A DNA stretch of 20,800 nucleotides, taken from a virus. Below, piece after piece: positions 2,283-20,800 of this stretch. The notes below the pieces were generated by a model. It made no database searches and was not told the DNA's origin. It saw nothing but the letters and a program-made list of their open reading frames with translations. The stretch is taken from positions 1 to 20,800 of IMG/VR virus record IMGVR_UViG_3300037488_001639; one strand, written 5' to 3'. Each line of letters starts with the position of its first letter. Within the stretch, counting starts at the first letter, position 1. The translations under genes were made by a program, and so were the position numbers.

Positions 2283-3086
2283 TTAGTAACTGTCGAGACA
2301 GAGCGAGTGAGTCGGGATGGAGGCAGGTGAGTTCAAAGCCTCGGGGGTCACTGGGTACACAACGTCGCCCACATGGCCCACTATCTGACGAGTATCACAC
2401 CACAGTTTCAAGCCAGACTTTCGGGCCAAATGACCGAAGCCGTAGTCCTCACCCAGCATTCGCGCCCCGCTGGCCCCCGTCCCCACCTCAGTCCCATGCA
2501 GAATGTCCTGTACCTCTTGGAACGTACCGGCCAAGGCGATCCGAGCCAGCTTGCCTTCAGGAGTATTGGGGCCGACCAAGCCGATGGGGAACAGCTCGGT
2601 CATGCTCTTGGTTGCCCCGCCCTCATCTTCGTAGTCGAATCGCCGCTCAGGGAAGAAGTCGACCATGTGCTGCAAGGCGGCCACCGAGGTCGACAACATG
2701 CCCGTCCCCACGAAGTCACACTGGAGCATACCGTCCTCACGGACCTCGGCACCGGGGGTCTTCACGATTAGCCATGAGACTGGGCCACTCTTCTTCTTCA
2801 CATAGGGTGCGGCCACGATGTCTTCCTCACGGGACACCAATGCCACCAACTGAGTGGGGTTCCAGAACTGGTCCTTGTCGATCTGGACCAGCTTCCAATA
2901 CCCCTGCTCTATGGCGGACTGGGCCGCGATGTTGCGGGAGATGTTGATGGCAGAGTTGCCCGACTCCATCAGGAACTCGAAATCATACTCCGCATGCTGC
3001 ATGCGGAGGGTCTGGTCATAGGCAGAGAACCAGTAGTAAGGGACTCCGCCCTTGGCGGAGCAGGTGACGAGGACACGTTTTTTCAT
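2283..3086 (-). CDS. Glycosyltransferase-like protein, GT-A type
   Basis: The 267-residue product is likely a cytoplasmic sugar transferase. Residues 4-10 (RVLVTCS) form the first strand, and IDKD at 69-72 sits where GT-A enzymes carry the metal- and nucleotide-sugar-binding DxD motif. A GTGM turn follows at 127-130. Residues 212-240 (GEDYGFGHLARKSGLKLW, then a conserved-looking GHVG) match the usual GT-A ending in which an acidic pair precedes a helix and a His-Gly motif. It overlaps the upstream gene by ATGA (3083-3086), and a GGAGAG lies about 10 nt before its start. Acceptor and sugar are unknown: host surface glycan, virion protein or modified DNA base are all possible. Family placement is from motif pattern, not a search. 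Confidence 0.85.
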   Translation of the reverse strand: MKKRVLVTCSAKGGVPYYWFSAYDQTLRMQHAEYDFEFLMESGNSAINISRNIAAQSAIEQGYWKLVQIDKDQFWNPTQLVALVSREEDIVAAPYVKKKSGPVSWLIVKTPGAEVREDGMLQCDFVGTGMLSTSVAALQHMVDFFPERRFDYEDEGGATKSMTELFPIGLVGPNTPEGKLARIALAGTFQEVQDILHGTEVGTGASGARMLGEDYGFGHLARKSGLKLWCDTRQIVGHVGDVVYPVTPEALNSPASIPTHSLCLDSY

Positions 3087-3370
3087 GCGAAGAGTCTCTC
3101 CGAAGCCCGCAACGCAAAGACCTGCCAGACTCCAGCGTTGCCTTTGAAGTTACCCACATAGCGGGCATTCTCAGGGGTCAGGGCTTGGTCCATGGTCAGC
3201 ATCATAATCTCCACCTTCTCCACCGCCCGCTCCTTGTCCTCCAAGGTCCACAGAAGGCAGTTGTTATGGCGTATGTCCAGATGGACGTCCAGCAGCTTGG
3301 CGTGCTGTGGCAGGTCTACGACCTGACGACCGATGATCGGGAGGGAGCGGGCTTGGATGGTTTGGCTCAT
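3083..3370 (-). CDS. Small DUF7352-like phage protein
   Basis: The 95-residue product has the layout I associate with DUF7352 proteins of phages: a strand near LPIIGRQVVDLPQHAKLLDV, a central LLWTLED strand, then ARYVGNF and a C-terminal VWQVFALR. Function of the family is not known to me. It overlaps both neighbours by ATGA (3083-3086 and 3367-3370), so it is translated as the middle of a tightly coupled three-gene set between the methyltransferase and the glycosyltransferase. No Shine-Dalgarno precedes its start, which fits coupling to the upstream gene. The DUF assignment is a memory-based match and moderate in confidence. Confidence 0.8.
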   Translation of the reverse strand: MSQTIQARSLPIIGRQVVDLPQHAKLLDVHLDIRHNNCLLWTLEDKERAVEKVEIMMLTMDQALTPENARYVGNFKGNAGVWQVFALRASERLFA

Positions 3371-4017
3371 AGAGGTTTGGTCAGCAGACCGAAGGTGTTA
3401 TTGTCGAGACTTTCAAAGCTGCCCCACAGACCCTGCTCGGCGACGAACCGCAACATGGCAGCGTACACGTCAGGATAAGTTGTCAGGTCATCGACCAGCA
3501 TCACACCACCCTTGCGGAGCAAGGGCCAGTAGTCGCAGATGTCCTGATAGGCGGCCCGAAAGGTATGGGAGGCATCGACGTAGATGATGTCCGCCACCAC
3601 CTCCGCAGCCTTCAACAGGATAGCCCCTTCGGCAGAGGTGTTGACGATGGGCACCACCCGGTCTTGCAGGCCACGGGACTTCATGTTCACCAAGAACTGC
3701 CAGTAGGTCATGGGGTGTCCGTTCTGACGGATCACGGTGTAGAGCTTGGCGTTATTCAGGACGGCTTCAGCAGATTCCAACCAAGTGTCCACGCAATACA
3801 ACTTGCCCTCCAGCCCCATCGCCTCGGCCCAACGCACCGCCGAGCCACCCTTGTGGGAACCCACTTCGATCACGACCTTGGCCCCCACCTTGGAGACCAG
3901 TTGATCGAAGACCGGCGAGAGCGCAGAGGGGAAGGTCTGACCGTCGAACGGCAGCCCCAACTCTTCAACGCGCTCGTAGACGGAGGCGTCGGGCAAGATA
4001 GTTTTTACGGAGGACAT
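3367..4017 (-). CDS. SAM-dependent methyltransferase, Methyltransf_24-like
   Basis: The 216-residue class I (Rossmann) methyltransferase shows motif I VVIEVGSHKGGSA at 48-60 (SAM-binding glycine loop), CVDTW at 75-79 (acidic residue that usually binds the SAM ribose), IIYVDASHTFRAAYQDI at 144-160 and LLRKGGVMLVDD at 166-177. The D-A-S-H and G-G-x-x-x-x-D-D pattern is typical of small-molecule or sugar O-methyltransferases rather than DNA methyltransferases, and I see no NPPY or PC motif. Paired with the adjacent glycosyltransferase it may decorate a glycan, which is inference. Its first 53 bp overlap the end of the regulator gene at 3965-4126 in another frame. The next gene overlaps its stop by ATGA. 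Confidence 0.93.
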   Translation of the reverse strand: MSSVKTILPDASVYERVEELGLPFDGQTFPSALSPVFDQLVSKVGAKVVIEVGSHKGGSAVRWAEAMGLEGKLYCVDTWLESAEAVLNNAKLYTVIRQNGHPMTYWQFLVNMKSRGLQDRVVPIVNTSAEGAILLKAAEVVADIIYVDASHTFRAAYQDICDYWPLLRKGGVMLVDDLTTYPDVYAAMLRFVAEQGLWGSFESLDNNTFGLLTKPL

Positions 4018-12074: not shown

Positions 12075-13409
12075 ATGGCCCGTCTCGTCAGTCACTATTC
12101 CACGTTCCTGACGAATTGGTGTTCGTTGGTGGGGATTCCCACGTCCCGCCTCACGACCGAAATTGCGGCGACCGCCAACGCGGCATTCAATTCCGCATTG
12201 TCGAAGATGTGGGGAGACGGGCAGTGGATGGAGGTCTGCCCCTATGGCGAGGCACGGTTCTTGGGGAACCGGCTGACCTACCCCAACAACTTGGCCAAGT
12301 CGGCGGTGTGGATAGCCTCGGGAGTGACCGCCACAGCCAACAGCATCGCCAACCCCGCCGATGGGACGGTCACGGCCACCAAGGTGATGGAGACAGCTAC
12401 AGGACTTGCGGCAGTCCACAAGGTGGTTCAGTCGGTCACGAACTTCTTCCCCTCCACCAGTTATACGGTCTCGTTCTACGCCAGACCCAATGGTCGGGCA
12501 TTCCAATACCTGTCGGTCGATGACGGGGTCACCAATTACACGGCGTTCTTCAACACATCGACTGGCGCGGTAGGGACTACGTCGAACTTCACGACGACCA
12601 CGATTGCCCAGCAGCCCAATGGTTTTTGGCTCTGCCAAGCGACCTTCACCGCCAATGTCGCCGCCACCTCCAGCGGATCGGTCACGCTGCAACTCTCGTT
12701 AGACGGCTCCACCCTCTCCTACGCGGGAGATGTCACCAAGGGTGCATATTTCTGGGGTGCCTTGGTGCAACAGACCAGCAACACCCCAGTACAAGACCTC
12801 ATTCTGGAGTGGGACCAGACGGGAGAACATGCCATCGACGTCGTCTTCAACGTCTGGCCCTGCTCTCCCTTCGCCAGCAACTTTCCCTCTCAGTTCGGCT
12901 ACAATCTCTTGCCGCAAGGCATCCAGATCATCAATGGGACGCCGTATCAGTATGTCGTATACAACAACGGCGTTGCCCAGAACAATCTCTACGGTGCCCC
13001 GCCCAGCAATCCGGTCTACATCTACTACCGCAAGACCGCCCCGACCTTTTCCGGCGACACCTACAGCGCGAGCAGCACCTACACCGTAGACCAGCAGATC
13101 TACTTCACCAACGCCGCAGGCTACGGGGATTTCTACAAGTGCGTCGTGGCCACTGTCGCTGCTGAAAGCCCTACCACCACTCCCGCCAGCTGGGAGATCA
13201 TCCCCTTCTACGACGTCTTTTTGCCCTACTGCACCTACCAGTCTTACGGTGATTGGCTAGTCGCTGATGGGCAGCTGGACAAAGCCCAAGCCGCCTACGG
13301 TATTGCAGAAAACAAGATGGGGGATCAGTTTGACGTGATCGAACGCCAGATGAACGCCATCTCCCCGATGAAGGTCCAAAGCCACTTAACCTCCCGACCC
13401 GCCTACTAA
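12075..13409 (+). CDS. Tail adaptor (head-tail connector) with inserted lectin-like domains
   Basis: The 444-residue product sits below the portal in short-tailed phages. The N-terminus (1-60: helical, SRLTTEIAATANAAFNSALSKMW, ending near WMEVCPYGE) and the C-terminus (about 376-430: FLPYCTYQSYGDWLVADGQ, QAAYGIAENKMGDQFDVIERQ) match the helical-bundle pattern of adaptors. Between them, residues about 62-233 form a beta-rich segment (LTYPNNLAKSAVW, TSYTVSFYARPNG, NGFWLCQATFTA, GAYFWGALVQQ) like the carbohydrate-binding-type domains often added to phage tail proteins. A second small insert at about 325-375 (TYTVDQQIYF, DFYKCVVAT) resembles a chitin-binding CBM5/12-like fold. A GAGGT ribosome site lies 6 nt before the start. 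Domain labels are pattern-based. Confidence 0.85.
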   Translation: MARLVSHYSTFLTNWCSLVGIPTSRLTTEIAATANAAFNSALSKMWGDGQWMEVCPYGEARFLGNRLTYPNNLAKSAVWIASGVTATANSIANPADGTVTATKVMETATGLAAVHKVVQSVTNFFPSTSYTVSFYARPNGRAFQYLSVDDGVTNYTAFFNTSTGAVGTTSNFTTTTIAQQPNGFWLCQATFTANVAATSSGSVTLQLSLDGSTLSYAGDVTKGAYFWGALVQQTSNTPVQDLILEWDQTGEHAIDVVFNVWPCSPFASNFPSQFGYNLLPQGIQIINGTPYQYVVYNNGVAQNNLYGAPPSNPVYIYYRKTAPTFSGDTYSASSTYTVDQQIYFTNAAGYGDFYKCVVATVAAESPTTTPASWEIIPFYDVFLPYCTYQSYGDWLVADGQLDKAQAAYGIAENKMGDQFDVIERQMNAISPMKVQSHLTSRPAY

Positions 13410-13756: not shown

Positions 13757-15019
13757 ATGCTCTCCAATCACCCAAATTGTCTGGGCGGAAACGGCCCCTC
13801 AGCTTCCTCAGATCTTATCGGCGATGTGGACGGCCCCGCCTCCGCAACCGACAACGCAGTCGCACGGTTCGACGGCACGACGGGCAAGCTCATCCAGAAC
13901 TCCGCCGTCACGATTGACGATAGCGGCAACATCACGCCGACGGGCAGCGTGCACGCGGCTGCGGGCTCTGTCGGAAATCCGAGTCTTGCGTTTAACGTCG
14001 ATCAAAACACCGGACTCTATAACATTGGCCCGAACAACATCGGCGTAGCGGCTAACGGGTCGAAGGTGCTCGACATTGCGACGACGGGATTGACGGTTAC
14101 GGGCGCGCTTGGTGCCTCCTCCCTCACCTCCCCCGCCGCGACCAACCTCACGCTCGCAGGCGGCAGCTCGGGCGCGAGTCTGGTGCTGGGGCAGGGGCCG
14201 ACGACGGCGAGTGTATTAGTCACGCCTACTGGGGTCGGTGGATTCTTGCGGGTGTTGAAGGCGATGCCATCAACCTCGCAGTTTACGTCCGTAGGGTCGC
14301 TCCAACTCATAAACACCGACACGACTGCAAATAACTGGAACAGCATCGACTTTGTGGACTCGCTTGGCGGTGGGACCGTTGCGGGTATTTACGTAAAGCA
14401 CACCGACCATACCAACGATTACGGCGAGCTGCAGTTTGTCACTCGCGGCGCAGGCGGATTAGCAAGTCGCGGCATCTTCACGGAAACCGGCAACCTCCTC
14501 ATCGGCACCACCAGCGAAACCGGACTCACCGGAGCGGGCGGACTCAAGATCAACTCCTCCACCGCAGGCTCCTCCGGCGCAGGCGCGCTGGTTGTCGCGG
14601 GTGGTATCAGCGTGGGGGCAGGCATTGATGCCTCAAGCCATTTTGGGGGCAAGTTAGAGATTACTGGCGAAGGCTCAACCAATTACGGCACCTCTAATCC
14701 GGTTCTTTACCTAAAACGCTATACTTCTCCAAATGGAAATTTTTTGGTGTTCCAAGGCAGAACCGCATACACCACTTACATAGGCACGATTGGCACCGCT
14801 GCTGGGATCGCGACCACGAATGACGATCTTGTCATAGGTACAACCGGCAACGCCCCGACGTTTGCGATCACTGCCTCCACCGGAGCCGCCACCTTCGCGG
14901 GCGCGGTGACGATTGGAAACACTGTGAACACCGTTTCCCCAACGTCGCCCAACCGCACGGTCACAATGGTGGTCAACGGCGTGACTCTCTACCTCGCAGC
15001 GAAAACCACTAACGACTAA
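13757..15019 (+). CDS. Tail fibre or spike protein
   Basis: The 420-residue Gly/Ser/Thr/Ala-rich beta protein is probably trimeric and involved in host attachment. Residues 32-50 (TDNAVARFDGTTGKLIQNS) are a very common repeat-type motif of phage fibres, followed by repeated strand-turn units (NITPTGSVHAAAG, GSKVLDIATTGLTVTG, NLLIGTTSETGL, PTFAITASTGAATFAGAVTIG) suggesting a beta-helix-like shaft. No intramolecular chaperone or hydrolase motif is seen. Base use changes inside the gene: about 14636-14830 is richer in AT than its flanks, hinting at a swapped segment. Start ATG 13757 has no Shine-Dalgarno. Confidence 0.85.
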   Translation: MLSNHPNCLGGNGPSASSDLIGDVDGPASATDNAVARFDGTTGKLIQNSAVTIDDSGNITPTGSVHAAAGSVGNPSLAFNVDQNTGLYNIGPNNIGVAANGSKVLDIATTGLTVTGALGASSLTSPAATNLTLAGGSSGASLVLGQGPTTASVLVTPTGVGGFLRVLKAMPSTSQFTSVGSLQLINTDTTANNWNSIDFVDSLGGGTVAGIYVKHTDHTNDYGELQFVTRGAGGLASRGIFTETGNLLIGTTSETGLTGAGGLKINSSTAGSSGAGALVVAGGISVGAGIDASSHFGGKLEITGEGSTNYGTSNPVLYLKRYTSPNGNFLVFQGRTAYTTYIGTIGTAAGIATTNDDLVIGTTGNAPTFAITASTGAATFAGAVTIGNTVNTVSPTSPNRTVTMVVNGVTLYLAAKTTND

Positions 15020-15762: not shown

Positions 15763-18333
15763 ATGAACCGCTACCGCACCTACGGACAGACCGATGATCC
15801 CCCTCTTGTCGAGGGGGATCGTTCGCTCGTCGGCTCCAACGACTGGGACGCAGCAGAGAATATCCCCGCAGGCCAAGTCCAAGCGGCGGTCAACATGGAC
15901 TTCACCACGCAGGACGCCGTCACCCGTGGCGGGTTCGTGTGCCTGCCCGGCTTGGGTGCAGCCCCGTTCGACAGTGCTTGGGTACAGCGGTCCGCCTCAG
16001 AGAACGATAGTTGGAACTCGGTGACCTATGGTAATGGCGTCTTCGTTGCCATAGCTTCGGTCGGCACGAACCGGGTAATGACCTCTCCTGACGGGTTCAC
16101 ATGGACATCCCGCCTTGCGGCAGCCATGAATAATTGGTCGTCTGTCACTTTTGGCGCGGGCATATTTGTTGCCGTATCCACAACCGGCACCGGCAACCGA
16201 GTGATGACCTCGCCCGACGGCATTACATGGACAATCAAGGTCTCTGCCGCAGACAGTGCTTGGACAGAGGTGAGATATGGCGCAGGACGTTTTGTTGCCG
16301 TGGCAGCGGCGGATACTGTGCGAGCAATGTATTCGCTCGATGGCACTACTTGGGTGTCGAGTGCCTCTCTGGCATCCGAAACGTGGATAGCCGCCGCCTA
16401 TGGTAACGGACTCTTTGTTGCTGTTGGAACGAATGTGGTGGCGACAACTAACGACGGCATCACATGGACCTCTCGAACCTGCCCAACCGGAGTATGGACG
16501 GGGGTCACCTACGGTGAAGGTCTCTTTGTCGCGGTAGGATTTTCAGGTGCTACACGGGCAATGTCTTCTCCCGACGGCATCACATGGACCGCACGCACTG
16601 CGCCCGGAAGTTATAGTTGGAGAGCGGTGACGTTCGGCTATGACCGGTTCGTGGCGGTAGCGTCCTCTGGTCTGCCAGTAACCAATGCCGTGATGATCTC
16701 CTACAACGGCATAGACTGGCTGTTGCGGGAGTCTCCGACCATCATCCCCACCCCTGCTTGGCTTGCGGTTACTTATGGGGCAGGGGTTTTCGTCGCTGTC
16801 TCAGACATCAATCCCGGAACTGTGATGACCTCCTACGCCGTCACGGTCTGGGCCTCGGGGGTCTACTCCGATCCCGGAGACCCGGGCTCTCAGTGGATCA
16901 TGCTGGTGGGCAATACCTCGGTGGGTTTCTACGTCAACGGCAGAGTCCCCCACACCGTCTCACTGGGTGGCTACACGGTCTCGACCCAGTCCACCATCGT
17001 TCAGTGCAACAACCTTGTCTACCTGTTCCGTGGTCCTGACGTGGCACCCATATATTGGGATGGGAACTGGAACGGGACGTTTACTGCTGTCCCTCCCCCC
17101 TCCCCCATCGTAGGAATATCGGGCATCTCCAATAGCAATCAGGCAACCTACTACCAAGACAGGTTGTGGGTGATCTCCGGGAAGGATGAAGTCGCTGCAT
17201 CGGACAAACTTGTATTCTACAACTATAAAGACGAAACCGCGAACTTCTCTATAAACACGGGGGCGTCGGACTACCTCGTAGCGACGTTTCCGTTTGGGCA
17301 GAACAATCTCCTCGTCTTCAAAAACAAGTCCATCTCGATCCTGCAAAACGTATCGGGAGAGCTGGAGGACGTGACGTCCACGGAGCTTACCCGTCAGGTC
17401 GGGTGCATCGGCATCAATGCGGTGGTATCGGTAGGCCCGGACCTCGCCTACATGAGCGACCGTAACATCAATCTCGTTACGCTGACCAATACCAACAATT
17501 CGGTTCAGCACAAGACCCTCCCCCTTTCTCGCAACATCTCCAGCCTGCTCAAGCGGGTGAATTGGGAATACGGATACAAGGTGAGCATGGCGTATTTCGA
17601 CAACAAGCTGTTCGTGGCCGTCCCCCTCGACAACGCGGTCTTCTGCAACACCGTCCTCGTCTACAATTTCGTCACCGAGAACTGGTTTGGGGAATGGAAT
17701 TTCTCTTCCGCCATCTCCATGGGCATTCAAGGCTGGGCCGTCGCGAATTATCTGGGGCTGCAACGACTGCACGCCATCACCGAGGACGGACAGATCCTCG
17801 TCACAGGTGAGGGGCAGAACGACATCAGCGGCACCAACGTCGTGGACATCGCCACCTCGCTGACCTCCCGGGCCTACAACTTCGAGGGCAACAACGCCAC
17901 CCAACGTCGCATGTTTGCCGACCTTGCCACCAATCGTCCGGACTTCAGCGTCACCACCTATACCGACGGTGCCTCCGAGAGTTCCGCGATCCTGACCGAT
18001 CAGACCTACACCCGCTCCGAGAGCTGGCTTTTCAACGATTCGGCCTACGACCTGACCAACGTCAACAACGACTTCAACCGGGCCTACCGCAAGGACTACT
18101 CCACTGGCCCCTTGGTCGAACTAGGGTCTACGCAGGGACAACCTTCCACGGGGCTGCAATGCGGCACGGGCTTTCAGCCTGAGATGACGCAGGATTACCG
18201 GTTTCCCATTATCACTCGACGGCAAGGGCGGCTCTCATGGCTCAACATCACCAACACTACGGGAGTCATCAAGATCAGGGGAATTGGCTTTGAGAATCAC
18301 ACTGGCCAACGTGGCAGCCTCGTCCAAGTTTAA
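15763..18333 (+). CDS. Tail nozzle protein with an inserted seven-repeat beta-propeller
   Basis: The 856-residue product would form the distal tail tube. Residues 1-68 and about 367-856 carry the nozzle pattern of short-tailed phages (compare T7 gp12): a start with AAVNMDFTTQDAVTRGGF, then YYQDRLWVISGKDEVAASDKL, FPFGQNNLLVFKNKSISIL and a late DNKLFVAVP and ENWFGEW. Residues about 70-366 hold seven units of about 41 residues with consensus W-x-x-V-x-Y-G-x-G-x-F-V-A-V ... M-x-S-x-D-G-x-T-W-T (Trp at 84, 125, 167, 208, 245, 286 and 333). Seven repeats of this kind predict a closed seven-bladed propeller. A GGAG site precedes the ATG by 8 nt. Confidence 0.9.
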   Translation: MNRYRTYGQTDDPPLVEGDRSLVGSNDWDAAENIPAGQVQAAVNMDFTTQDAVTRGGFVCLPGLGAAPFDSAWVQRSASENDSWNSVTYGNGVFVAIASVGTNRVMTSPDGFTWTSRLAAAMNNWSSVTFGAGIFVAVSTTGTGNRVMTSPDGITWTIKVSAADSAWTEVRYGAGRFVAVAAADTVRAMYSLDGTTWVSSASLASETWIAAAYGNGLFVAVGTNVVATTNDGITWTSRTCPTGVWTGVTYGEGLFVAVGFSGATRAMSSPDGITWTARTAPGSYSWRAVTFGYDRFVAVASSGLPVTNAVMISYNGIDWLLRESPTIIPTPAWLAVTYGAGVFVAVSDINPGTVMTSYAVTVWASGVYSDPGDPGSQWIMLVGNTSVGFYVNGRVPHTVSLGGYTVSTQSTIVQCNNLVYLFRGPDVAPIYWDGNWNGTFTAVPPPSPIVGISGISNSNQATYYQDRLWVISGKDEVAASDKLVFYNYKDETANFSINTGASDYLVATFPFGQNNLLVFKNKSISILQNVSGELEDVTSTELTRQVGCIGINAVVSVGPDLAYMSDRNINLVTLTNTNNSVQHKTLPLSRNISSLLKRVNWEYGYKVSMAYFDNKLFVAVPLDNAVFCNTVLVYNFVTENWFGEWNFSSAISMGIQGWAVANYLGLQRLHAITEDGQILVTGEGQNDISGTNVVDIATSLTSRAYNFEGNNATQRRMFADLATNRPDFSVTTYTDGASESSAILTDQTYTRSESWLFNDSAYDLTNVNNDFNRAYRKDYSTGPLVELGSTQGQPSTGLQCGTGFQPEMTQDYRFPIITRRQGRLSWLNITNTTGVIKIRGIGFENHTGQRGSLVQV
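15796..15820 (+). promoter_or_regulatory. Perfect hairpin near the start of the nozzle gene
   Basis: GATCCCCCTC (15796-15805), loop TTGTC, then GAGGGGGATC (15811-15820): ten perfect pairs, seven of them G-C, beginning 33 nt after the start codon. No T-run follows, so it is not a terminator. It may slow the ribosome or protect mRNA, or may be incidental. Confidence 0.5.
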
Positions 18334-18344
18334 CACCTACCACC

Positions 18345-19208
18345 ATGCCAACCGTAACACCCGGCTACACTTTCACGGGGGCCACCGACCCGATCACCTC
18401 TACCAAGCTCAACCTGTTGAGCACCCCCTCCGTCACCATTGGCAACGGTGAAGTGGTTACGGCCACCATTTCGGACAACGCGGTGACTACGGCCAAGATC
18501 GCAGCCCTCGCGGTGACGACGGCCAAGATCGACGCCCTCGCGGTGACCACGGCCAAGATCGACGCCCTCGCGGTAACGACGGCCAAGATCAACGCCCTTG
18601 CGGTTACGTCCGCAGAGCTTGCAGCCAACGCGGCCACGACGGCCAAGATCAACGACCTTGCAGTGACCACGGCCAAGATCAACGACCTTGCGGTGACCAC
18701 GGCCAAGATCAACGACCTCGCAGTGAACGCAGCCAAGATTTTTGGTGGGTCAGTGACTCTTGATAAGCTTTTTACAGTGGGGAGTAACAACAGGTTCATA
18801 GCCCGATATACGACCGTTGCTCCGGCAACGGCGGAGGATTTCCAATTATTGGATACGACTGTAACTGGACTTGGATTTTACACGGGTGCTGGTGGTGTGG
18901 TTTCTCAGGGTAACACTAGCGGCAAGGCTACTACATTCACGTTGGATAAAATGTGCGGTCAAATCACGACCGATATAGCTTCACTAGCTGCGGCTACCAT
19001 TGTCTCCGCAACATGGAATAACTCACTCATCGCGGCCACTGACGTTGTCATCATCAACCACAAATCGGGTGGCACCATGGGGTCTTACACAATCAACGTA
19101 GCTTGCGGTGCTGGGACTGCTACTCTGAGTATCCGCAACAACACCGCCAGCCCTTTGAGCGACAATCTGGTCCTGAACTTCGTAGTCATCAAGGGCGTCA
19201 CCTCCTGA
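18345..19208 (+). CDS. Tail fibre with decapeptide repeats
   Basis: The 287-residue product starts 11 bp after the nozzle stop. Residues 1-45 look like an attachment domain. Residues 46-135 are nine units of ten residues with consensus A-V-T-T-A-K-I-x-x-L, a well-known fibre-shaft repeat type that probably gives a trimeric coiled or triple-helical rod. Residues 136-287 are a distinct beta-rich tip (NRFIARYTTVAPA, IVSATWNNSLIAATDVVIINH, GSYTINVACGAGTATLSIRNN) that probably binds the receptor. Codon use shifts toward AT at the repeat-tip junction (about 18735 on), suggesting an exchanged tip. Confidence 0.88.
   Translation: MPTVTPGYTFTGATDPITSTKLNLLSTPSVTIGNGEVVTATISDNAVTTAKIAALAVTTAKIDALAVTTAKIDALAVTTAKINALAVTSAELAANAATTAKINDLAVTTAKINDLAVTTAKINDLAVNAAKIFGGSVTLDKLFTVGSNNRFIARYTTVAPATAEDFQLLDTTVTGLGFYTGAGGVVSQGNTSGKATTFTLDKMCGQITTDIASLAAATIVSATWNNSLIAATDVVIINHKSGGTMGSYTINVACGAGTATLSIRNNTASPLSDNLVLNFVVIKGVTS
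18480..18749 (+). repeat. 30 bp in-frame tandem repeat in the fibre shaft
   Basis: Nine units of 30 bp, most containing ACGGCCAAGATC and encoding AVTTAKI plus three residues. Units 1-4 and 6-8 are closest. Unit 5 (TSAEL) and unit 9 (NAAKI) have diverged. Confidence 0.93.
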
Positions 19209-19209
19209 C

Positions 19210-20800
19210 ATGGCATCTTTTGGAATATACGACGGGACCGATGACGAGCCCGAGGACGAGCGTCTTGCAAGGCTTGCTCGCGAAGAGGTGGAGAAGGAAC
19301 TTGCAGAAGCGGCTGCTGCGGAGTCTCAGAAGTTTAGGGATACCAATCCGTTTTCAGATGGCGTGACCACGGGAGCGGACGGTGGGAGTGGACCCTTCAA
19401 TCTGGCCCCTTTCAACGTGATTGGCGTGCGCGAGACGGAGACGGAGAGAATCGCGAGAGAGTCCCGTGAGGGAGATCCATTCTTTGGGGGTTCGTCTGGT
19501 GGTGCAGGAAGTTTAGCCACCACTACGAATGTCACCGTGCCGACTTCTGTTCTCCCAGTTCAAACGATGTCTCCCGTTTACGTCCCGGCGTCTTATGGAG
19601 ACCCTCTGATGGACAGGATACAGAATGAGCTGCTGGCGTCGATGAATGCAGAACGCAAAGCGCAGAATCTTCCACCTCTCACGGAACTGGATGCGAGAAA
19701 TCGTAATCTAGGCGTAACCCTAGCGGATTATGTAACTAAGAACCTTCCCGGAGAGCAATCTAGGCAACAATACGAGAAAGAGAGAGCGGCGGAATTGGAG
19801 AGCAGGGAGAAGGCGGAAAAACTTCGACAACTGAGAGAGCTTAACCCGCTCAATCCCATCTTCGACATTGTCAGGTCTTCCGCCACCGGAGCGTGGGAAA
19901 TCGTTAAAGACCCCGCACAAGGTCTCAGCAATGTCGCCACGAACATTGGACAGATCTTTGAGCCGGGTGCGGACACCAACGTCATACCCCTGCCGATACC
20001 CGCTGCCGTGGGAGCAGGTATTACCATAGCCGGACTTGCAAATCCCAACGATGTGACGAGGGCGACCGATAAGCTGAATGAGGCGAAAGCCGCAGCAGCA
20101 CAGGGAAGGAGAAACGGAGTATCCGACGAAGAGCAAGCTGACTTGGATGACGAGGTAGTGAACCGCCAAGGGATATTGGACACTGCCAAAGGAAGTACGC
20201 CATCACAGGGAGGTGCCGCTGGGGTTGTGACTGCGATTGGTGCTGCCGCAGCCGGGGGTACCGCTGCTGGTACTGGTGCCGGGGCCGGAGGTGCCGCAGC
20301 CGGTGGTGCCTCAGCCGGTGGTGCTGGTGCCGGGGCCGGGGCCGGTGCCACTCAGACGACGACTCCGACCACGGTGGTCACCGGTCCCGGTGATGCGTTT
20401 GAGCAGCCCGGGACCACCACTACGGCTCCAACTGATTGGACCAAGTTAAAGGCAGCCCAAGATGCCGCAGCCCAAGCAGGCCAAACAGCTCAAACCCAAG
20501 CGATAGCCGGAATGGGGGTTACCACACCTACCACGACAAAGACAGGCCCCGACGGCTTATTCGAGCAGCCCGCAGCCACGACAACTCCTACTGATTGGAC
20601 CAAGGCAGATGCGGCCCGAACAGCCGCAGCCCAAGCAGGCCAAACAGCTCAAACCCAAGCGATAGCCGGAATGGGGGTTGCCACACCCACCACGACACAG
20701 CAAAACCCCGACGGTACGTTTGTAGTTGGTGGCGGCGGTGGCGGTGGCGGTGGCGGTGGCGGTGGCGGTGGCACCAATAAATGCCCCGACGGGTCAGATA
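19210..20800 (+). CDS. Long low-complexity virion protein, cut by the window end
   Basis: Open from ATG 19210 (one base after the fibre stop) to the edge: 530 codons and no stop. It is not recognised. Residues 1-45 are acidic and helical (DEPEDERLARLAREEVEKEL). About 187-212 is a charged coiled-coil stretch, and 258-277 (VIPLPIPAAVGAGITIAGLA) is hydrophobic and could cross a membrane. About 334-380 is Ala/Gly-rich, two near-identical 53-residue repeats lie around 394-499, and a run of 14 glycines follows near residues 508-521. Position after the nozzle and fibre fits an internal or ejected virion protein, or a tail accessory protein. That role is inferred from place and composition only. Confidence 0.8.
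   Translation, partial: MASFGIYDGTDDEPEDERLARLAREEVEKELAEAAAAESQKFRDTNPFSDGVTTGADGGSGPFNLAPFNVIGVRETETERIARESREGDPFFGGSSGGAGSLATTTNVTVPTSVLPVQTMSPVYVPASYGDPLMDRIQNELLASMNAERKAQNLPPLTELDARNRNLGVTLADYVTKNLPGEQSRQQYEKERAAELESREKAEKLRQLRELNPLNPIFDIVRSSATGAWEIVKDPAQGLSNVATNIGQIFEPGADTNVIPLPIPAAVGAGITIAGLANPNDVTRATDKLNEAKAAAAQGRRNGVSDEEQADLDDEVVNRQGILDTAKGSTPSQGGAAGVVTAIGAAAAGGTAAGTGAGAGGAAAGGASAGGAGAGAGAGATQTTTPTTVVTGPGDAFEQPGTTTTAPTDWTKLKAAQDAAAQAGQTAQTQAIAGMGVTTPTTTKTGPDGLFEQPAATTTPTDWTKADAARTAAAQAGQTAQTQAIAGMGVATPTTTQQNPDGTFVVGGGGGGGGGGGGGGGTNKCPDGSD
20390..20707 (+). repeat. 159 bp in-frame tandem repeat, two copies
   Basis: The block from 20464 is identical over 57 bp (to 20520) to the block from 20623 (to 20679), giving a 159 bp period (53 codons). 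The flanks also align: GAGCAGCCC and ACTGATTGGACCAAG recur at the same offset. Each copy encodes T-D-W-T-K, then an Ala/Gln-rich helix (AAAQAGQTAQTQAIAGMGV) and P-T-T-T. Confidence 0.92.
20731..20771 (+). repeat. (GGTGGC)n microsatellite encoding a poly-glycine run
   Basis: A run of GGT and GGC codons gives 14 consecutive glycines within the open gene. It is a slippage-prone tract that probably forms a flexible linker before a following Cys-containing segment (NKCPDG). Confidence 0.9.

Follow-up and report, generated by a model that had tools for sequence, protein, structure and literature searches.

Introduction

The tail nozzles of the phages T7 and SU10 are hexamers whose channel is formed by a propeller of seven blades and which can take up further domains; in both, the platform/blade-1 side of the nozzle faces outward, close to where the fibres dock (PMC6702177, PMC9509320). 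A nozzle can also bear on host choice. In the accessible part of a report on the Acinetobacter phage Abp4, tail tubular protein B, a nozzle-type protein encoded at a hypervariable locus, determines host range and adsorption, its recombinant form competes for adsorption and the receptor is capsule; the change described there is a point mutation in a repeat locus, and that part mentions no inserted propeller (PMC10904470). The propellers of phi11 gp45 (five-bladed), phiKZ gp131C (seven-bladed) and PRD1 P2 have been proposed as receptor binders (PMC4901313), and the head spike of RcGTA binds capsule (PMC10218006). The accessible text on the lactococcal 936 and P335 phages further describes evolved Dit and similar proteins, in which a tail-core protein that is itself conserved has gained a carbohydrate-binding module (PMC10688798, PMC6669499). 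Accessory domains on nozzles, propellers that bind receptors and the exchange of modules are all known separately.

Here we analyse a 20,800-nucleotide stretch of viral DNA (IMG/VR record IMGVR_UViG_3300037488_001639; hereafter the window), in which the putative tail nozzle contains a predicted extra propeller. Whereas the propellers of phi11, phiKZ and PRD1 are found in dedicated receptor-binding or baseplate proteins, that of the window is an insert in a presumed DNA-conduit protein. It resembles the evolved Dit in placing an accessory module within a tail-core protein; however, going by the accessible text on those phages, the fold and the core protein are different, and in the window the phage is short-tailed and the module is exchanged among close relatives. 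A literature search of open-access full texts found no nozzle described as carrying a whole inserted propeller that related phages exchange.

Results

The window encodes a putative nozzle with an internal repeat domain

The genes for terL (4151), portal (5903), MCP (9604), an adaptor candidate (12075) and the nozzle (15763) follow one another in the window, a synteny shared by its relatives. The nozzle gene is thus located downstream of the portal, capsid and adaptor candidate genes, as expected for a podoviral nozzle. The features considered here are as follows.

12075..13409, + strand: putative head-tail adaptor gene (gene position and the earlier note's call, without a family match)
12267-12773, + strand: carbohydrate-binding-type insert in the adaptor gene, residues 65-233 (NCBIfam NF048003 GTA_spike_fiber, E 1.7e-20)
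13757..15019, + strand: tail-fibre-like gene (weak match to phrog_28766 tail fiber, E 7e-4), which in close relatives forms the second hypervariable island (DNA profile)
15763..18333, + strand: putative tail nozzle gene (P22 gp10/head-closure Hc3-like core) with inserted propeller, an 856-aa ORF
15763..15972, + strand: N-terminal core segment, residues 1-70, conserved, stopping at the insertion site (alignments, including the empty-site alignment)
15979..16848, + strand: inserted, predicted seven-bladed beta-propeller, residues 73-362 (AlphaFold pLDDT 90.4, pTM 0.90, 28 strands; PDB matches with TM 0.7-0.82)
15979..16104, + strand: repeat unit 1, its first strand predicted to close blade 7 (repeat analysis and AlphaFold)
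16105..16230, + strand: repeat unit 2 (repeat analysis)
16231..16353, + strand: repeat unit 3 (repeat analysis)
16354..16467, + strand: repeat unit 4 (repeat analysis)
16468..16587, + strand: repeat unit 5 (repeat analysis)
16588..16716, + strand: repeat unit 6 (repeat analysis)
16717..16848, + strand: repeat unit 7, without the Asp-box-like turn, its strand d predicted to come from the N-terminus (repeat analysis and AlphaFold)
16849..18330, + strand: C-terminal nozzle core, putative channel-propeller body, residues 363-856 (alignment and homology to insert-free nozzles)

The assignment as a podoviral nozzle is made by homology, through the protein C75C1, annotated "head closure Hc3". C75C1 matches the core of the window protein (E 4e-15), is co-linear with it at the N-terminus and itself matches the phrog_578 Hc3 family (E 1.1e-10), and hhalign connects the window protein to P0002, annotated as a phage stabilization protein (E 1.2e-8). 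By its place in the head-tail module and by the homology of its N-terminus and core via C75C1, the protein resembles P22 gp10, Hc3, T7 gp12 and the SU10 nozzle, whereas the complete extra propeller between N-terminal segment and core sets it apart from these. Searches of the window protein against PHROG, Pfam and NCBIfam returned no nozzle or receptor family, a PDB sequence search gave chance matches only and a PADLOC scan nothing; single-protein scans with the insert or P0002 as query reached almost nothing. The AlphaFold model of the whole protein is weak outside the insert, with a mean pLDDT of 66 and values under 50 in the N-terminus and across much of the C-terminal third; the core is mostly beta, with pLDDT mostly 50-85 and long stretches below 50. 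Because fold searches with the whole chain were swamped by unrelated multi-propeller proteins that superimposed poorly, the insert was folded on its own.

Seven repeats are predicted to close into a propeller

The insert consists of seven units of 42, 42, 41, 38, 40, 43 and 44 residues, in agreement with the earlier note, which had described seven units of about 41 residues and placed them, correctly to within a few residues, at 15970-16860. The motif [YF]G-x3-FVA[VI] occurs seven times in the insert and [ST]-x-[DN]-G-x-[TD]-W six times, compared to maxima of one and two, respectively, in 20,000 shuffles, which rules out a chance origin of the repeats. That every unit contains W-x-x-V, F-V-A-V and S-x-D-G-x-T-W proved too strict: the motifs recur, but they are degenerate in units 1 (FVAI), 4 (W-I-A-A and T-N-D-G-I-T-W) and 6 (S-Y-N-G-I-D-W), and unit 7 (TSYAVTVW) has no S-x-D-G-x-T-W-like motif. 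Seven units are also the rule among the relatives, as a blade profile run on 36 inserts gave seven matches in most. The inserts of L033/L036 and L052/L054 gave eight, since an insertion splits one blade, and the most divergent (e.g. L047 and L048) just 3-5.

AlphaFold, run on the insert alone with an alignment of the 36 inserts, places one N-terminal strand before six full blades and three last strands, whereby the N-terminal strand completes blade 7. Foldseek matched this model to PDB structures including virginiamycin B lyase (2z2o; TM 0.79/0.82, rmsd 2.7) and YCF48 (TM about 0.7); phiKZ gp131C is absent among the PDB fold matches listed. Strand order, pTM and these seven-bladed matches indicate that the insert is a closed seven-bladed propeller, as the earlier note had anticipated. 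In the model the chain enters at the start of strand d and exits at the end of strand c, both in blade 7; both ends therefore lie on the face of the ab and cd turns, consistent with the previous proposal of flanks that connect on one side.

The repeat style and fold are akin to propellers of the DUF6242, EPTP and YCF48 types. However, the window propeller scores 16.4 bits against DUF6242 (PF19755), under the Pfam gathering cut-off of 29, and EPTP (PF03736) matches one partial repeat (21 of 42 positions), barely over its cut-off, rather than seven repeats. A DUF6242 protein in BFVD superimposes with a TM of 0.89 by target at 35% identity. Pfam BNR had no match in the window protein at the family threshold; the S-x-D-G-x-T-W turn is shorter than the BNR Asp box. 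Five columns are invariant over the 36 inserts (S43, S85, W91, W132 and S204).

The propeller occupies a site that accepts different domains

Close relatives, defined by a core at least about half identical, all carry the propeller (38 of 38 after removal of redundancy), making it a hallmark of the lineage. L063, the sole relative without an open nozzle frame, has several apparent frameshifts and was excluded. More distant homologues differ at this site. In L152, L153 and L155 it is empty and the nozzle flanks are joined by a short linker, while in C75C1 and L151 it is occupied by a different stretch of ~105 residues, itself less conserved (36/104 identical between the two) than the flanks (41/62 and 418/558). 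The site thus appears to have accepted accessory domains repeatedly. The propeller is a true insertion at the junction of the N-terminal segment and the first core blade; that it is an integral part of the nozzle core is ruled out by the insert-free homologues, although every close relative has it. C75C1 and L152 carry another insertion, of ~100 residues, in the blade 2/3 region, which the window nozzle lacks.

The region of blade 2 offers another insertion site: the two insert-free nozzles L155 and L152 are near-identical save for an extra stretch of ~67 residues there.

The propeller is exchanged as a cassette and varies on one face

Over 703 pairs of nozzles, mean pairwise identity is 68% in the N-terminus and 67% in the core but 31% in the insert; the mean column identity of the C-terminal core alignment is 74%. 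The drop is sharp even in close pairs, with N-terminus/insert/core identities of 94/34/94 for L028/L053 and 88/38/96 for L029/L024. The DNA of L013 and L011 is mostly about 87-100% identical, with two exceptions, the propeller and the tail-fibre region, where identity is lost. In the insert, synonymous divergence exceeds that of the flanks several-fold in most close pairs and up to tenfold (dS of insert vs core, 1.74 vs 0.17 for L010/L014 and 1.39 vs 0.17 for L029/L030); point mutation under selection on the protein alone therefore does not account for it. Insert and core dS are similar in some pairs (L012/L027, L027/L028 and L053/L009), as would be expected if only part of the pairs have swapped. 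Nearest neighbours by insert differ from those by core, and the insert alignment rejects the core clades L011+L013 (p 1.4e-4), L036+L038+L041 (p 6e-83) and one of six members (p 3e-57); the core groups L029+L024 (p 0.32) and L010+L014 (p 0.15) are not rejected by it. The raised insert dS and the rejected core clades show that cassettes have been exchanged between phages. The propeller is a hypervariable cassette swapped among relatives.

When the inserts are aligned, entropy in the b-c and d-a loops is 1.37 bits above that of the ab and cd turns (p 1e-4; the same in two subsets), and most of the indels fall in these loops. They are located on one face of the model, opposite the chain entry and exit. 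As a sign of a binding face this counts for less in that propellers in general often have one side on which the loops are longer and vary more.

Related propellers and other loci in the window

A profile built from eight propellers matched at least 554 viral stretches, of which 80 were kept. Among the matches listed, the propeller lies at or near the C-terminal end of a collagen-type tail-fibre protein (L089), C-terminal to an Mtd_N (major tropism determinant N-terminal) domain and collagen (L113:1783-3933), within Sipho_Gp37 (L145), behind an N-terminus with weak similarity to Mu gp48 (L015) and within a homologue of the solved tail nozzle 8ck1 (L112:2428-5253; E 1.5e-71, phrog_376). In the last, it spans about residues 196-490 and probably separates channel blade 2 from blade 3. 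Since a profile comparison found no similarity between the window core and the L112 nozzle, two nozzle types seem to have gained a propeller independently. The propellers of L096, L089 and L118 pass the DUF6242 cut-off, and BFVD includes similar ones in cyanophage baseplate and giant-virus proteins. BFVD entries M1PQ47 and Hokovirus A0A1V0SF56 are 46% identical to the window propeller; one is from a giant virus of protists. A search of the genome collection gave only one relative, a contig binned in an alphaproteobacterial MAG, which is too little to assign a host.

The adaptor candidate was reported previously to show the same design as the nozzle. It does hold an accessory insert, so that in a loose sense the design occurs twice, but the insert is a different, conserved domain: its GTA_spike_fiber match rules out a second propeller, and across relatives it is 63.8% identical, compared to 58.5% for the adaptor core. 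Neighbouring tail proteins of this phage thus seem to carry accessory modules of two kinds, one conserved and the other exchangeable.

In the gene that follows the nozzle, positions 18479-18739 encode nine 10-residue units, AVTTAKI[DN][AD]L, that resemble tail-fibre shaft repeats. Beside the terminase, on the minus strand (2283-4017), are an O-methyltransferase (Methyltransf_24) and a DUF7352 protein, possibly glycan-modification cargo. The contig end (1-681) contains perfect and near-perfect 7-8 bp tandem arrays (TGCTGCGG, CCGACCG, GCCAGATA), and a perfect 6-bp GGCGGT array at 20734-20772 encodes a run of glycines in the final ORF, which is open-ended.

Discussion

We consider it likely that the phage displays six outward-facing, exchangeable propellers that bind the host surface, with glycan as the likeliest ligand. 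The nozzle would keep its own core, a platform segment and a channel body, and carry a complete second propeller at the junction of the N-terminal segment and the first core blade. With entry and exit on the conserved face, the hypervariable face with its b-c and d-a loops would point away from the nozzle and bind host-surface structures, most likely polysaccharide. As the nozzles of solved relatives are hexamers, six copies would ring the tail, variable face outward. The earlier note had set this ring around the tail tip; by comparison with T7 and SU10, the site instead maps to the outer platform/blade-1 side, where their fibres dock, and not clearly to the tip (PMC6702177, PMC9509320). Swapping the cassette between phages would change binding specificity and leave the DNA conduit undisturbed. 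That relatives keep the tube but swap the propeller suggests recognition of the host surface, as do, indirectly, the similar propellers on collagen fibres and behind an Mtd_N domain, and the nozzle-type protein of Abp4, with its capsule receptor, together with the GTA head-spike-type domain of the putative adaptor, makes a glycan the best inference for the ligand. It is doubtful that the propeller is a trigger as well, tethered to the first blade of the gate core such that a ligand-bound ring of six pulls the nozzle open.

The same variability could arise if the variable face bound the N-terminus of a matching tail fibre, with the two co-varying to fit. The inferred location on the side where T7 and SU10 dock their fibres (PMC6702177, PMC9509320) favours such a dock, as does the finding that the variable islands of L013/L011 are those two, the fibre region and the propeller. 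Yet the two vary independently, which weakens the idea and leads us to regard it as improbable: propellers 90% identical accompany fibre ORFs of 24% in L050/L007, the values are 77% and 39% in L029/L030, and over 300 pairs the propeller-fibre identity correlation is 0.09, fibre ORFs having been picked mechanically as the largest in the interval, with a few picks that look wrong. Somewhat less probable still is a ligand-free spacer or stabiliser of the hexamer that diversifies under weak constraint. Propellers are rigid and nozzle cores themselves use one (PMC6702177), and every close relative keeps the insert at its site, but relaxed constraint would raise dN and not dS, whereas here most close pairs show a dS several times that of the flanks; whole cassettes are swapped, and insert-free nozzles indicate that the core works without it. 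We think it very unlikely that the propeller is a virion enzyme, such as a glycan hydrolase or lyase that opens a surface layer. Virginiamycin B lyase (TM 0.8) is indeed among the fold matches, as are GH74 enzymes when the whole model is searched, and some phage endosialidases use propellers (PMC4901313), but there are no enzyme family matches and, outside the fold motifs, the 36 inserts share no residue set conserved across relatives.

Exchangeable host-surface-binding propellers on the nozzle thus remain the reading we favour. Fibres and spikes are where one usually looks for the host range of a short-tailed phage; here, the putative DNA-exit protein bears a module that can be exchanged and whose turnover is as rapid as that of the fibre region. 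The family consists of uncultured phages and counts over 50 contigs, and propellers of a similar kind are found at the ends of tail fibres as well as in an unrelated nozzle. Should the propeller bind the host, the nozzle would also have to be read in host prediction and in phage engineering, and the trigger for nozzle opening would become testable through a discrete domain. Were the propeller itself that trigger, a host sensor would lie within the gate, partly independent of the tail fibres.
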